A stretch of 36,285 nucleotides of DNA from Chloroflexaceae bacterium (lineage in GTDB: Bacteria > Chloroflexota > Chloroflexia > Chloroflexales > Chloroflexaceae), in the NCBI GenBank assembly GCA_012031225.1, contig JAAUTZ010000035.1, positions 1-36,285 of the forward strand, given 5' to 3'. The notes beneath the pieces were generated by a model. The model worked only from the letters and a program-made list of their open reading frames with translations. It did not search any database and had not been told where the DNA came from. A program made the position numbers and the translations under genes. Below are positions 2,487 to 11,813 of this stretch, one piece after another (the stretch's first letter is position 1; each line of letters starts with the position of its first letter).

Positions 2487-2560
2487 TTATCCACGAGTTG
2501 TCCACAACATACCCCGAAAAATGCTTACAGAATCGGGTGGTTATCCTCTGTTTATCAACG
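2487..2560. promoter_or_regulatory. Two pairs of DnaA-box-like nonamers upstream of dnaE
   Basis: Relative to the consensus TTATCCACA, the plus strand has TTATCCACG (2487-2495) and TTGTCCACA (2498-2506), each matching 8 of 9. Further on are TTATCCTCT (2541-2549) and TTATCAACG (2552-2560), each matching about 7 of 9. Within each pair the starts are 11 bp apart. The second pair lies just upstream of the dnaE -10 element and would overlap its -35 region. DnaA binding here, and control of dnaE by it, are inference. The rest of the 385-bp gap (2364-2748) holds a short hairpin at 2372-2387, the extended -10, and a leader of about 165 bases with nothing else I can identify. Confidence 0.55.
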
Positions 2561-2568
2561 CATGCCCG

Positions 2569-2577
2569 TGCTATAAT
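2569..2577 (+). promoter_or_regulatory. Extended -10 promoter for dnaE
   Basis: TGC directly precedes a perfect TATAAT (2572-2577), an extended -10 element. No good -35 is seen; the space is occupied by DnaA-box-like sites. Transcription would start near 2584, leaving about 165 bases of untranslated leader before dnaE. Confidence 0.6.
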
Positions 2578-2748: not shown

Positions 2749-5700
2749 GTGCGTATGAATGATTTTGTGCATCTGCATGTTCACTCTGAATATAGCCTGC
2801 TCGATGGCTATGCCTCGACCAAAGCTATCGCCCAACGGGCTGCCGATCTGGGGATGGGCAGCATCGCCCTGACTGACCACGGCGTAATGTACGGGGCGGT
2901 GGAATTCTACGAGGCGGCGCAGAAAGCGGGCATCAAGCCGATCATCGGCGTAGAGGCATACGTTGCGTCCGGCGATCATACCGAACGCGCCGGACGCTAC
3001 TACCACCTGCTGCTGCTGGCGAAAAACGAGATTGGCTACCGCAACCTTGTGCGGCTCACTACACGCGCCCACCTCGATGGCTTCTATCGCAAGCCGCGCA
3101 TTGACCGTGCCCTGCTCGAACAGCACCGCGAGGGCCTGATTGTCACCTCCGCATGTCTGGCGGGCGAAGTTGCCCAAGCGATTGAGCAGGATGACAAGCG
3201 CAAAGCCCGCGAGATTGCCGAATGGTACAAGGGCGTGTTCGGTGAGGATTTCTTCCTCGAATTGCAACTGCACGACAACACCCCCCAGCTCGCAGGCATC
3301 AATGATGAGTTGGTGCGGATCGGCGGCGAGCTTGGGATTGAGCTAGTTGTCACCAACGATACCCACTATATTCAGTCGTCCGACCTAGAGATGCACAACC
3401 ACATCCTTGCGATGGGCTACGGGATCACCCTCGATGAGCTGTGCAACAAGGGGCGCAACTTCGACGGAACCTACCATATCGCATCGGGCGAGGAGATGTG
3501 GCAACGCTTCAAACACTACGGCACGGCTCCGCTCGAAAATACGCAGCGCATTGCCGATCTGTGCAATCTTAACTTGACCTTCGGGCGGGTGCAGCTCCCT
3601 GCCTTCGAGATCCCAGATGGCTTCAACGCCGAAACCTACCTGCGCCACCTCTGCTTTGAGGGGCTGAACCGCCGCTGCAACAACGCGCCCCCATCCGGCT
3701 ATGAAGAGCGGCTCGATTATGAACTGAATGTCATTAACCAGACGGGCTTCCCCGACTATATGCTGATCGTGTGGGACTATGTGAAGTATGCCCGCACTCG
3801 TGGCATCCCCTGCCTGCCGCGTGGCTCGGCGGGGGCCTCGCTGGTGCTGTACTGTCTCGGCATCACGGATGTTGATCCGGTTGCCAACAAGCTGCTGTTT
3901 GAACGCTTCCTCAGCCTTGAGCGGCTGGAAATGCCCGATATTGATACCGACTTTGCCGATAGCCGTCGCCACGAAGTGATCGAATACATGATGGAGAAGT
4001 ACGGGCGGGACAACACCGCCCAGATCATCACCTACGGCACACTCGGCGCGAAAGCCGCCCTGCGCGACATTGGGCGGGTGATGGGCATTGCCTTGAATGA
4101 GGTGGATCAGGTGGCTCGCCTGATCCCTGCGCTGCCGGTCGGTACGACGATTGCCAAAGCCCTTGAGCGCGTGCCGCAGCTCCGCCAAATCTACGATAGC
4201 GACGAGCGCATGCGCGATCTGATCGAGCGGGCCCAGAAAGTCGAAGGGCGCATGCGGAGTTTCGGCACGCACGCCTGCGGGGTGGTGGTGAGCCGCGATC
4301 CGCTCGCTGATCTGGTGCCCCTGCAACGCACCACCCGCGATGAACAATCGGTGATGGCGGCGTATGAGGGCAACACGCTTGCGAAGATTGGCTTGCTCAA
4401 GATGGATATTTTGGGGCTGGCCAACCTCTCGATAGTGGCGCAGGCGTTGGAGTACATCGCCGCCACGATGGGCAAGCGCATGCAATTGGAAGATATACCG
4501 CTCGATGATCCGTATACCTTTGCGGGCTTGAGTGAGGGGCACACGGTTGCGGTGTTCCAACTGGAATCGGCGGGCATGACGCGCTACCTGAAAGAGCTGA
4601 AACCGACCCGCGTGGAAGACCTGTATGCGATGGTTGCGCTGTATCGGCCGGGGCCCCTAGAGCAGATCCCGCACTACATCCGCAACAAGAACAACCTCCA
4701 CCAGATCAGCTATCTGCACCCGATTCTGAAGCCGATCCTTGAAGATACCTACGGCATCATCGTGTATCAAGAGCAGATTATGCAGCTGCTCCAAGCGATT
4801 GCAGGCTATACGCTAGGGCGGGCCTACATCGTGCTGAAAGCCATCGGCAAGAAGAAGCGCGACCTGATGGCGCAGGAGGAGCCGATCTTCAAGGAAGGCT
4901 GTGTCAAGAATGGGCTAACCCGTGAGCAAGCCGATCATCTCTGGGATCTGATCCAGCCCTTTGCGGGCTACTCCTTCAATCGCCCGCACTCGACGCTGTA
5001 CGGCTTGCTCAGTTACCAGACGGCCTACCTGAAGTTCAACTACCCCGCCCAGTACATGGCGGCCGTGCTGTCTGCGGCGGCTGGCTCAACGAGCGATGTT
5101 GCCAAAGGAGTGAGTGAGGCGGGGCGGCTCAGGGTGCCGATCTATCCGCCGGACATCAATGCCAGTGGCATAGACTTCACCTTTGAGAAGTTGCGCGATG
5201 AGGATGGCTACGCGATTCGGTTTGGCTTGGCGGCAATCAAGAATGTGGGGCACGCTCCAGTCGAGGCGATCCTTGCTGCACGCAATGAGGGCGGCAAGTT
5301 CGAGAGCCTCGAAGACCTATGCGCCCGTGTGGAACACGCCGCCCTGAACAAGCGCGTGCTAGAGAGCCTGATCAAGTGTGGCGCACTCGATGATCTGAGC
5401 GGCAATCGCCACCAGAAACTCGCCATCCTTGATGCGGCGATCCAGTCTGGCTTGCAAGCCCAGAAAGCGCGGGAGAGTGGACAGGTCAGCCTGTTTGATC
5501 TGTTTGGGGCGCAGACGAGTGCCACCCCGACGGTGAGTGCGATACCCTTGCCAGTGGTGAAGCTCACGCCCCAGCTCAAGAAAGAAGAGCTAGTTTGGGA
5601 GAAAGACCTGCTGGGCATGTATATCTCCGATCATCCATTGCAGGTGCTTGATCGACTCAATCTTGATCCGAGCCAGTATCTTCCGCTCGACGCACTCCGT

Positions 5701-6606
5701 GAGCATATCGGCAAAGGGGTGAGCGTGATTGGCATGCTCTCGCGTTCGCGCACGGCCACCACCAAGAAGGGCGAACGCATGCTGATTGCGGTGCTAGGGG
5801 ATCACCAAAACGAAATCGAAGTGGTGGCATTTCCTAAAGCCTACGAGAAGCTGAATGATGTGCTTGCCGATGATCGGGTGCTGCGGGTGCAGGGCAAAGT
5901 TGAGGATCGCCGCGACACGCTGCAACTGGTGATCGAGGCGGCGGAGGATTTGGAGCAGCTCGCTGAGGCACTGCCGGAAACGCCTGATGAGACTGAATTG
6001 GCCCAGATTGAACATGAGCAGACGGACGCAATGAACGACGAAGAAGCAACTCCCGCGCCCACCGTGCGGCGCACAGAAGCCGCGGCGGCAGTGCCCGCGC
6101 CGATGCCCGAAACGGCTCCATCCCCGCCTACGTCGCCTGAGTCGGCTCCCACGCCGGAGATTCCAGTGGCAGCCGCAAACACCCGCACAATCCGCACGCC
6201 GAACCGCGTCAGCCTTGCCGCCAAAGAGAGCGGCGCGAGCTACACGACAGGCAACGGGCCCACTGGCCCGAATGGCAATGGCAACGGGCCCACTGGCCCG
6301 AATGGCAACGGCTACAACGGCAATGGCAACGGGCACGCCGCAAGCCCCGCTAGCCCATCGCATTCGGGGCGCGTGCTGCACCTGAACCTGCCCACCTCGC
6401 CCGATGTGCAGCACGACATCCGCCGCATGCAAGATATAGATGACTTGCTGCGGGCGTGCGAAGGGGGCGATCAGGTGTTGCTCTATCTCCCCAATGGCGT
6501 GGGCACGCTGGTGTTCCAGCCGCACTACACGGTGCATGCCAGCCCCGATCTGATGCGCCAACTCGGCACGCTGGTGGGGGATGGCAATGTCTCGCTGGCT
6601 CCGTAG
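2749..6606 (+). CDS. dnaE: DNA polymerase III subunit alpha
   Basis: A 1285-residue replicative polymerase catalytic subunit. The N-terminal PHP domain starts HLHVHSEYSLLDG and includes TDHGVMYG. The polymerase active-site aspartates are in PDIDTDF (residues 396-402) and KMDILGL (D553). RPGPLE, FGTHACGVVVS and RPHSTLYGLLSYQTAYLKF are family signatures. The helix-hairpin-helix and OB-fold region (GKGVSVIGMLSRSRTATTKKGERM) ends near residue 1080. A low-complexity Pro/Ala/Glu then Gly/Asn/Pro stretch (about 1095-1205) then separates a short C-terminal domain. Family members are usually about 1150-1200 residues, and the linker accounts for the excess. Start is GTG at 2749 or ATG at 2755; neither has a clear Shine-Dalgarno. 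Upstream DnaA-like sites suggest replication-linked control. Confidence 0.96.
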   Translation: MRMNDFVHLHVHSEYSLLDGYASTKAIAQRAADLGMGSIALTDHGVMYGAVEFYEAAQKAGIKPIIGVEAYVASGDHTERAGRYYHLLLLAKNEIGYRNLVRLTTRAHLDGFYRKPRIDRALLEQHREGLIVTSACLAGEVAQAIEQDDKRKAREIAEWYKGVFGEDFFLELQLHDNTPQLAGINDELVRIGGELGIELVVTNDTHYIQSSDLEMHNHILAMGYGITLDELCNKGRNFDGTYHIASGEEMWQRFKHYGTAPLENTQRIADLCNLNLTFGRVQLPAFEIPDGFNAETYLRHLCFEGLNRRCNNAPPSGYEERLDYELNVINQTGFPDYMLIVWDYVKYARTRGIPCLPRGSAGASLVLYCLGITDVDPVANKLLFERFLSLERLEMPDIDTDFADSRRHEVIEYMMEKYGRDNTAQIITYGTLGAKAALRDIGRVMGIALNEVDQVARLIPALPVGTTIAKALERVPQLRQIYDSDERMRDLIERAQKVEGRMRSFGTHACGVVVSRDPLADLVPLQRTTRDEQSVMAAYEGNTLAKIGLLKMDILGLANLSIVAQALEYIAATMGKRMQLEDIPLDDPYTFAGLSEGHTVAVFQLESAGMTRYLKELKPTRVEDLYAMVALYRPGPLEQIPHYIRNKNNLHQISYLHPILKPILEDTYGIIVYQEQIMQLLQAIAGYTLGRAYIVLKAIGKKKRDLMAQEEPIFKEGCVKNGLTREQADHLWDLIQPFAGYSFNRPHSTLYGLLSYQTAYLKFNYPAQYMAAVLSAAAGSTSDVAKGVSEAGRLRVPIYPPDINASGIDFTFEKLRDEDGYAIRFGLAAIKNVGHAPVEAILAARNEGGKFESLEDLCARVEHAALNKRVLESLIKCGALDDLSGNRHQKLAILDAAIQSGLQAQKARESGQVSLFDLFGAQTSATPTVSAIPLPVVKLTPQLKKEELVWEKDLLGMYISDHPLQVLDRLNLDPSQYLPLDALREHIGKGVSVIGMLSRSRTATTKKGERMLIAVLGDHQNEIEVVAFPKAYEKLNDVLADDRVLRVQGKVEDRRDTLQLVIEAAEDLEQLAEALPETPDETELAQIEHEQTDAMNDEEATPAPTVRRTEAAAAVPAPMPETAPSPPTSPESAPTPEIPVAAANTRTIRTPNRVSLAAKESGASYTTGNGPTGPNGNGNGPTGPNGNGYNGNGNGHAASPASPSHSGRVLHLNLPTSPDVQHDIRRMQDIDDLLRACEGGDQVLLYLPNGVGTLVFQPHYTVHASPDLMRQLGTLVGDGNVSLAP
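6250..6309 (+). repeat. Two tandem 30-bp units inside dnaE
   Basis: Two adjacent 30-bp copies (6250-6279, 6280-6309) differ only in the last base. They encode GNGPTGPNGN units in the linker before the C-terminal domain of DnaE. A degenerate GN-rich continuation follows to about 6336. Confidence 0.9.
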
Positions 6607-9678: not shown

Positions 9679-11040
9679 TCACCCCCGTGCATCGTAGCTC
9701 GAGCGGTGGTGTTCGAGGTTTTGGAAGCTGGTGGTGGCGGCCTCGAAGCGCAATGGCACAACCCCAAGCGGGCCATTGCGATGCTTGGCGATGTGGATTT
9801 CGGCGATGCCCTTCTTATCCGTCTCGCGGTCATACATATCCTCGCGGTAGATAAACATCACGATGTCGGCATCCTGCTCGATGCTCCCCGATTCGCGCAA
9901 ATCGCTGAGCATCGGGACGTGGTTGGTGCGCCCTTCCACCGAACGCGAGAGCTGGCTCAAGGCGAGCACCGGCACATTTAGCTCACGCGCCAGTGCCTTC
10001 AAGCCACGACTGATCTCGCTCACCTCTTGCACGCGGTTGTCGCTGCGTCGCCCTTGCATGAGTTGCAGATAATCCACCACCACCAACTCAATCCGTGACT
10101 GGGCGTGCAGCCGACGCGAACGGCTCCGCATCTCCATGATGCTCAGGGCGGGGGTGTCGTCAATGAAGATCGGCGCAGAGGAGAGCACCCCCATGCCTTC
10201 CATCACGCGCTGCAAGTCGCGGTCAATATTGCCTGTCCGCAGGCGTTGGGTATCAATGCCGGTGTGCATTGCTAGCAGGCGTTGGACAAGCTGCTCGCGG
10301 CTCATCTCAAGGCTAAAGATCGCAACGGTATGCTGCTGGGCTACGCCCGCGTGGTAGGCAAGGCTGAGGGCGAGCGACGTTTTGCCGACGCTGGGGCGGG
10401 CGGCGAGGATCAGCAAGTCAGAACGCTGCAAGCCGCCCGTCAGCTTGTCCAGATCGTAATAGCCGGTTGGCAAGCCGACCATCTCGCTCCGCCGCTCGGA
10501 GAGATCGCTGACCTGCTCGAAGTAAGTATCAATCACCGAGCCGATATGCACGAAATCTTGCATCGTGCGCCGCTGCGAGACGGCAAACAGCTCAGACTCG
10601 GCTTTGTCAAGGGCATCTTCAACTTCTTCATGTTCGGCATAGCCGAGCGCAGTGATCTTGCCGCCCGCCTCAATCAGGCGACGAAAGATCGCTGTGCGCT
10701 CGACGATGCGGGCGTAGTATTCGACGTGGACCGCCGTCGGCACATGGCCGGCTAGCTCACTGAGGGCAAAGATGCCCCCCACCTGCTCCAGCCGATTTTG
10801 GCGGCGCAGCTCGTCAATCACCGTCGTCAGGTCGGGTGGAATGCGCCGGTTGTAGCAGGCGAGCATTGCCTCATAGATGTAGGCGTGCTTTTGCAGATAG
10901 AAATACTCCGCGTGCAGCCACGCGGCAACCGCAATGATCGCATCCCGATCCAAAAGAATCGAGCCAAGCGTAGAGCGTTCAGCATTCAGATCGTAGGGCA
11001 CAGCGCGATCTATGCGTTCAATTCGTTCGAGTTCATCCAT
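9679..11040 (-). CDS. dnaB: Replicative DNA helicase
   Basis: A 453-residue hexameric helicase that unwinds DNA at the fork. The N-terminal DnaB domain starts RAVPYDLNAERSTLGSILLD. The RecA-like motor has Walker A ARPSVGKTS (residues 214-222), Walker B LVVVDYLQLMQG, and the C-terminal LSQLSRSVEGR...LSDLRESGSIEQDADIVMFIYRE. No intein or insertion is seen. It follows rplI on the same strand, a common bacterial arrangement, but 206 bp separate them and the gap carries a DnaA-box-like array and palindromes. That suggests dnaB can be expressed independently of rplI. Confidence 0.97.
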   Translation of the reverse strand: MDELERIERIDRAVPYDLNAERSTLGSILLDRDAIIAVAAWLHAEYFYLQKHAYIYEAMLACYNRRIPPDLTTVIDELRRQNRLEQVGGIFALSELAGHVPTAVHVEYYARIVERTAIFRRLIEAGGKITALGYAEHEEVEDALDKAESELFAVSQRRTMQDFVHIGSVIDTYFEQVSDLSERRSEMVGLPTGYYDLDKLTGGLQRSDLLILAARPSVGKTSLALSLAYHAGVAQQHTVAIFSLEMSREQLVQRLLAMHTGIDTQRLRTGNIDRDLQRVMEGMGVLSSAPIFIDDTPALSIMEMRSRSRRLHAQSRIELVVVDYLQLMQGRRSDNRVQEVSEISRGLKALARELNVPVLALSQLSRSVEGRTNHVPMLSDLRESGSIEQDADIVMFIYREDMYDRETDKKGIAEIHIAKHRNGPLGVVPLRFEAATTSFQNLEHHRSSYDARG

Positions 11041-11066: not shown

Positions 11067-11119
11067 CCATCCACAGGCTATCCGATAGGTTTCCCACAGC
11101 TATCCAGAGGTTGTCCACA
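11067..11119. promoter_or_regulatory. Five phased DnaA-box-like nonamers upstream of dnaB
   Basis: Read against TTATCCACA on the plus strand, the sites are CCATCCACA (11067), CTATCCGAT (11078), TTTCCCACA (11090), CTATCCAGA (11100) and TTGTCCACA (11111). Matches range from about 5 to 8 of 9. Start-to-start steps are 11, 12, 10 and 11 bp, so all lie on one face of the helix and in one orientation. The array ends 27 bp before the dnaB start. This could be a DnaA-controlled promoter or part of a replication-initiation site. Binding is inferred. Confidence 0.6.
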
Positions 11120-11135: not shown

Positions 11136-11169
11136 CAATGTGCCGTCGGCACATGGCCGGGGCACATTG
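11136..11169. promoter_or_regulatory. Nested inverted repeats with GGCACAT half-sites
   Basis: ATGTGCCG and CGGCACAT meet around a single T (11138-11154). A second right-hand arm, GGCACATTG (11161-11169), also pairs perfectly with CAATGTGCC (11136-11144). Three copies of one half-site in 34 bp look like an operator with alternative dimers, or two mutually exclusive RNA hairpins. It lies between rplI and the DnaA-like array. Confidence 0.45.
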
Positions 11170-11184
11170 GCTGTTCTTGATCAA

Positions 11185-11209
11185 CGCACACATTCTGAGA
11201 ATCTGTGCG
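11185..11209. terminator. 25-bp near-perfect palindrome downstream of rplI
   Basis: Two 12-base arms flank a single G, with 11 of 12 positions paired (outer arms CGCACACATTCT and AGAATCTGTGCG). It begins 38 bases after the rplI stop on the minus strand, so it is placed as a terminator, but no T run follows. A protein-binding operator for dnaB is the alternative. Confidence 0.45.
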
Positions 11210-11246
11210 CCCTATTCTTGCTGGTGCAAATCAGTGCATCAGATCG

Positions 11247-11813
11247 CTAGGCTTGCTCGGCATCAGCGGCACTATCATCAGAGACATCGGCGACATCGGC
11301 ATCGGTTAGCTCAGGCGGGGCATCTGCCACAGGCGTAGCTTCTGGATCCACTGCCCCCCCAATAGCTTCAACGACAACATTGAGGATGGCATCTACGCCG
11401 GATGCAACCTGTACCTTAACGGGATAGTTGCCGATGCGCTTGATCGGGTCTTCCAGATCAATCTTGCGCCGATCAATCTCAATCCCAAGTTGGTCGTGCA
11501 GCTTTGTGGCAACATCCGCATTGGTGACTGAGCCATACAGCCGATCCAGTTCACCGACGCGCTCCTCAAACCGCAACGTCACGCCATTGAGGCGGGCGGC
11601 TAATGCTTCTGATGCAGTCCGCGCTGCCGCCTGCTTGCGCTTCCGCGCCGCAACCTGTTCTTCGGCTTGCTTCACCAAGCCCGGCGTAGCCATCACCGCC
11701 ATGCCTTTGGGCAACAGATAGTTGCGCCCGTAGCCGCCGGATACCATCTTAATCTCACCTGCCTGCCCCAACTTGTCAACATCTTGGGTTAGCAGTACAC
11801 GCATTTTCGCCAC
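11247..11813 (-). CDS. rplI: 50S ribosomal protein L9
   Basis: L9 binds 23S rRNA at the base of the L1 stalk. MRVLLTQDVDKLGQAGEIKMVSGGYGRNYLLPKGMAV is the conserved N-terminal domain, followed by the long connecting helix and the C-terminal domain (LYGSVTNADVATKL...IDRRKIDLEDPIKRIGNYPVKVQV). At 188 residues it is about 40 longer than usual because of an acidic Ala/Asp-rich tail (ELTDADVADVSDDSAADAEQA). The partners rpsF, ssb and rpsR, often adjacent, are absent here. A strong promoter lies at 11910-11938. Confidence 0.96.
   Translation of the reverse strand: MAKMRVLLTQDVDKLGQAGEIKMVSGGYGRNYLLPKGMAVMATPGLVKQAEEQVAARKRKQAAARTASEALAARLNGVTLRFEERVGELDRLYGSVTNADVATKLHDQLGIEIDRRKIDLEDPIKRIGNYPVKVQVASGVDAILNVVVEAIGGAVDPEATPVADAPPELTDADVADVSDDSAADAEQA

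Follow-up and report, generated by a model that had tools for sequence, protein, structure and literature searches.

A helically phased array of DnaA-box-like sites before dnaB in Chloroflexales, a probable DnaA-binding regulatory element

Why should a row of sites resembling the binding box of the initiator DnaA stand, about one helical turn apart, directly before the replicative helicase gene? The window analysed here is the whole 36,285 nt stretch of DNA from a Chloroflexaceae bacterium, contig C63 in a draft genome of 4.21 Mb, in which the order of transcription is rplI, a hairpin, and dnaB. Five DnaA-box-like 9-mers, all on the forward strand, lie in the stretch from the terminator hairpin of rplI to the start of dnaB. 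An earlier note had described these five same-orientation 9-mers with steps of 11, 12, 10 and 11, and all of them are found where it had placed them; measured from the strongest site, 11111, their offsets are 0, +11, +21, +33 and +44. From sequence comparisons we consider it likely that dnaB is regulated through a DnaA-binding array at 11067-11119, which would couple helicase and polymerase supply to DnaA. The features of this locus are as follows, with mismatches counted against the reference box TTATCCACA.

9679..11040, reverse strand: dnaB, replicative helicase, 453 aa (Pfam DnaB and DnaB_C)
11067..11075, forward strand: DnaA-box-like site 5, CCATCCACA, 2 mismatches, offset +44 (register peak at +43/44 elsewhere)
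11078..11086, forward strand: DnaA-box-like site 4, CTATCCGAT, 4 mismatches, offset +33, the weakest site, whose support is the register (peak at +32/33)
11090..11098, forward strand: DnaA-box-like site 3, TTTCCCACA, 2 mismatches, offset +21 (register peak at +22 elsewhere)
11100..11108, forward strand: DnaA-box-like site 2, CTATCCAGA, 2 mismatches, offset +11, with a 2-bp gap to site 1
11111..11119, forward strand: DnaA box site 1, the array anchor, TTGTCCACA, 1 mismatch
11137..11168, reverse strand: hairpin AATGTGCC...GGCACATT with a T-rich stretch after it, probable rplI transcript terminator
11247..11813, reverse strand: rplI, ribosomal protein L9 (Pfam Ribosomal_L9 N and C)

Individually the boxes of the window are weak, with between 1 and 4 mismatches and none perfect. 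At a threshold of two mismatches or fewer, the run 11090-11100-11111 is the only three-site run in the window, and 40 dinucleotide shuffles never produced anything longer than two-site runs. At the four mismatches needed to admit 11078, five-site runs also turn up at other places in the window, and 9 of the 40 shuffles have them, so the window alone cannot establish five sites, and relatives were brought into the comparison. A search of the same genome with an asymmetric pattern of another spacing yielded a chance match and nothing more, and that pattern was dropped.

Upstream regions were compared at 49 dnaB loci and 29 dnaE loci. A box with at most one mismatch occurs within 200 bp of dnaB at 34 of the 49 loci (shuffles: mean 2.1, maximum 5), and across 27 dnaB loci box density is 6.17/kb in the first 150 bp before the gene, 0.03/kb at 250-1500 bp, and 0.08/kb in the dnaB coding sequence. 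Same-strand spacings between boxes of two or fewer mismatches pile up at 11, 21/22, 32/33 and 43/44, and for dnaE also at 54; the expectation is about 0.02 per spacing. Because the loci are related, and these counts hence not independent, the key test of register used one locus per genus and excluded the window's own genus. In the resulting 17 other genera, with the hairpin-nearest box as anchor, the profile of box similarity has peaks at +11 (z 11.5) and +22 (z 8.0), and further at +32/33 (z 5.6/3.9) and +43/44 (z 4.7/3.0); since the loci were selected by the presence of a box close to the hairpin, the anchor itself is no evidence here and the downstream sites are. Over all 36 loci of the full set, box similarity past +43/44 is at background. 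These peaks match the offsets in the window, so that even its poorest site, 11078, falls where the relatives keep one. The anchor in relatives is often a perfect TTATCCACA and site 2 is often TTATCCAGA, and in nearly all genomes the anchor box starts 17-20 nt past the GGCACAT arm of the hairpin. In the sister genome (G001) site 3 (11090) is altered to TTTCCCATC; identity to that genome is 92% over the array, 91% over dnaB and 74% over the adjacent gap 11170-11246.

The phased array before dnaB is thus kept across the order, as the earlier note had suggested should be checked, with the array missing or below threshold at loci L015, L020, L023, L024, L147, L149 and L155. Among 78 DnaB relatives from outside the order no array was seen; a box with one mismatch or fewer lies within 300 bp in 13 of them and an exact box in 2. 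With so little found outside, the array seems confined to the Chloroflexales.

A similar arrangement precedes dnaE, which lies in the same window.

2487..2506, forward strand: double DnaA box TTATCCACG-N2-TTGTCCACA upstream of dnaE (boxes 2487 and 2498)
2541..2560, forward strand: second box pair TTATCCTCT-N2-TTATCAACG upstream of dnaE (boxes 2541 and 2552), ending 11 nt before the -10 element
2572..2577, forward strand: putative dnaE -10 element TATAAT, its sequence kept in relatives
2749..6606, forward strand: dnaE, DNA polymerase III alpha subunit (Pfam DNA_pol3_alpha and others)

At 22 of the 29 dnaE loci a box with at most one mismatch lies within 350 bp of the gene (shuffles: mean 1.8, maximum 7), and the Chloroflexus-like genomes (L176, L181, L186, L193) have no boxes at dnaE. 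Across relatives, the distance from box end to -10 element clusters at 11, 22/23, 33/34, ~55 and ~66 nt, which indicates that the dnaE boxes are in phase with the promoter.

How specific this arrangement is to replication genes was assessed by pattern searches, on which all genome-wide counts below are based. We defined a strict double box as TTATCCASA-N2-TTATCCACA, with a 2-bp gap and at most two mismatches, and took the reversed pattern as control. The window's own genome (4.2 Mb) holds just three strict double boxes, each at a replication gene (dnaA, dnaE and dnaB), and no match to the control; the genome-wide comparison that the earlier note had proposed thus favours its reading. Besides the dnaE pair listed above these are:

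C84:23436: double box before dnaA, 972 bp before the dnaA ATPase domain and ~400 bp before the longest dnaA frame
C63:11100: double box before dnaB, comprising sites 11100 and 11111

Because the dnaA pair lies at least ~400 bp ahead of its gene, it may serve another purpose. The search of 61 genomes of the order gave 120 strict pairs and 3 control matches; draft genomes may miss copies. In 17 genomes a strict pair stands ahead of dnaB, in every case on the opposite strand from the gene and 31-121 bp away as counted from the match start; dnaE has 13 in 11 genomes, always on the same strand, at 204-511 bp; and dnaA has them in 6 of the 61 genomes. The remaining 84 of the 120 lie away from dnaA, dnaB and dnaE, and those examined are mixed; clusters near parS are among them, as are pairs within genes or repeats. 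One such pair, in genome G033 (L267), sits in a CRISPR-like repeat region. The presence, spacing, conservation and gene specificity of the sites are direct observations.

Some further features of the dnaB neighborhood were recorded. The hairpin fold has z = -1.7 in the window versus -5.6 in the relative L006. A search of the rplI-dnaB gap for a sigma-70-like promoter found none; by eye, -35-like words at the end of the hairpin and -10-like words inside a box are poor matches and are not claimed as a promoter. An exact 19-bp repeat, GCCGTCGGCACATGGCCGG, is common to the dnaB coding sequence (10733-10751) and the rplI-dnaB hairpin (11142-11160), where shuffles lead one to expect 0.07 matches at three or fewer mismatches, and the sister genome has near, inexact copies in both places. 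In many relatives (L003, L031 and others) dnaB is split by large in-frame insertions at about residues 220 and 391-394, probably inteins, and the dnaB of the window is without them. A DnaA/DnaC-like ATPase gene, a candidate helicase loader, follows ~1 kb downstream of dnaB in several f2- and f4-family genomes (for example G042:C1:1432579-1433004).

Several other explanations of the array have to be weighed against regulation of dnaB. To chance similarity in a repetitive stretch we give hardly any credence: the five-site runs that shuffles yield at four mismatches would allow it, but the register is kept in 17 other genera and local enrichment is ~200-fold, in agreement with the view of the earlier note that these are not scattered chance matches. 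A chromosomal replication origin (oriC) between rplI and dnaB, with the array as one of its parts, is suggested by the clustered, phased, same-strand boxes, which are typical of origins, and the earlier note had raised an initiation region as one possible meaning. This part of the note is not supported by complete relatives. In G029, a single contig (5,258,541 bp, inferred to be C. aurantiacus, with dnaA at coordinate 1), dnaB lies at 1.32 Mb, whereas the sign of GC and TA skew, as sampled, changes at ~1.955-1.975 Mb, a site that also holds parS (1,969,325), parAB and a strong cluster of boxes, several of them exact. In G042, whose skew is too noisy for use, and in G053 the two are more than 1 Mb apart: dnaB at 1.43 Mb against parS sites at 36-137 kb in the former, 4.44 against 5.53 Mb in the latter. 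With dnaB at least 0.65 Mb from parS in these three complete or near-complete relatives, an origin at dnaB is very unlikely, and the window's own genome has a stronger origin candidate on contig C69, near parA. At the scale of 2 kb the surroundings of the array are not AT-rich (~57% GC).

Two further alternatives accept the sites as a real element and deny them a role for DnaA in controlling dnaB. A datA-like titration site has a high capacity for holding DnaA, and its loss leads to extra initiations. A phased multi-site array could likewise hold several DnaA molecules, and sequence cannot separate titration from regulation, so the array might be such a reservoir adjoining dnaB by chance; we think this unlikely, because in many genera the array keeps a fixed position and orientation with respect to both the terminator and the start of dnaB, and a similar array stands on the dnaE promoter in phase with the -10 element, placements that a reservoir would not need, and because the sites in the window are few and weak. 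The conserved block might instead be an mRNA leader, a terminator or antiterminator signal between rplI and dnaB, or the target of some other protein that reads the TTATCCACA-like word, as the hairpin and T-rich tail directly adjoining it at near-fixed distance could suggest. Such an element appears quite improbable, given that the same word recurs with 11-bp phasing before the TATAAT promoter of dnaE, where no such hairpin was seen, that this word, the DnaA box, occurs in perfect form in many relatives, and that phasing by helical turns points to a protein on duplex DNA and not to RNA folding.

Concerning origins in this group, several box clusters were observed away from dnaB. The G029 cluster spans 1,966,926-1,967,059 (within G029:C1:1966770-1967059, L297 11771-12060), downstream of a bifunctional-nuclease (BFN_dom) gene and by parS/parAB, and the origin of this C. 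aurantiacus-like genome is probably at ~1.955-1.975 Mb and not at dnaA (coordinate 1). The published C. aurantiacus genome places oriC at twelve o'clock (PMC3150298), a placement that the skew and parS data call into question. In the window's own genome a dense DnaA-box cluster on both strands lies at C69:24038-24242 (L200 2039-2243), just downstream of the same BFN_dom gene and with a parA-like gene ~5 kb away; it is likely the oriC of this genome. A Herpetosiphon-like genome has nine boxes after this BFN_dom gene too (L282 1767-1998), and in the Herpetosiphonaceae-like G044 a DnaA-box cluster (L273 2184-2279) adjoins two perfect parS (G044:C133:9183-9725) by a metal-dependent hydrolase gene, with a similar arrangement found again in its relatives.

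Returning to a DnaA-binding array that regulates dnaB, the genome encodes a DnaA suited to it, with an N-terminal domain, an ATPase, and a box-reading C-terminal helix-turn-helix domain (Bac_DnaA_C, E 3.5e-26) carrying the signature GGRDHTTVIH. DnaA binding at the array, its cooperativity and the direction of control are what we infer from the sites. DnaA would dock first on the hairpin-proximal box 11111 and its partner 11100, one helical turn off, and its cooperative binding would then proceed one turn at a time across the weaker sites 11090, 11078 and 11067 toward the dnaB start codon. Since the space from the rplI terminator to dnaB is short and is taken up by the array, DnaA bound there would control the transcription of dnaB; judging by position, repression, or a block to transcription coming from rplI, is slightly likelier than activation. 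With no sigma-70-like promoter found in the gap, the target of control may be a poor promoter or transcription reading through from rplI. The similar array at the dnaE promoter and the box pair before dnaA would place the dnaB array in a small DnaA regulon, in which the level or nucleotide state of DnaA would set the supply of helicase and replicative polymerase. The proposal of the earlier note that DnaA sets helicase supply fits both the gene specificity of the strict pairs and the conservation of the array across the order.

In E. coli oriC, low-affinity DnaA sites follow a strong anchor box at close helical spacing. The array resembles oriC in having a strong anchor and then weak sites at such spacing, and differs from it in standing before a gene, far from the likely origin; the spacing rule for the oriC sites is described in PMC11317965. 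According to the same source, the DnaA of E. coli binds chiefly to paired boxes separated by 2-3 bp, and an extra base between them weakens binding. The double boxes described there consist of the same word on the same strand with a 2-bp gap, at promoters of replication-related genes (PMC11317965), and the sequence features of that type are all present here: 9-mers near TTATCCACA, a same-strand pair with a 2-bp gap, and a standard DnaA. The E. coli sites are described as pairs, whereas the Chloroflexales array has up to five sites in register (PMC11317965).

Two other bacteria offer closer parallels at dnaB itself. The DnaA regulon of Caulobacter crescentus includes dnaB, which responds to DnaA supply (Hottes et al. 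2005, summarised in PMC8203912), and predicted DnaA boxes lie upstream of the gene as they do in the window; however, Caulobacter belongs to a different phylum, the cited summary contains no multi-turn phased array, and the partner gene is dnaQ where here it is dnaE. In M. tuberculosis, purified DnaA bound DNA upstream of dnaB, and a DnaA mutant with weaker binding under-expresses dnaB (PMC7738170); binding before dnaB was measured there and is here predicted from sequence. Control of dnaB by DnaA has therefore already been reported or proposed, and what would be new is a longer, lineage-specific phased array together with a partner array at dnaE.

Beyond a few model bacteria, little is known of how cells match the supply of the replisome to initiation. 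In the Chloroflexales, DnaA probably helps to set the supply of the copying machinery, as the arrays suggest. A broader reading, which we offer tentatively, is that DnaA of this order may form multi-turn filaments at helicase and polymerase promoters, acting as one switch for a dnaA/dnaB/dnaE regulon that would be as deep as the order, with the dnaB array fixed to the rplI terminator. The arrays before dnaB and dnaE across this order of filamentous phototrophs and its kin provide natural variation in site number and strength, and offer precise box mutations with which cooperative DnaA filaments at promoters could be tested.
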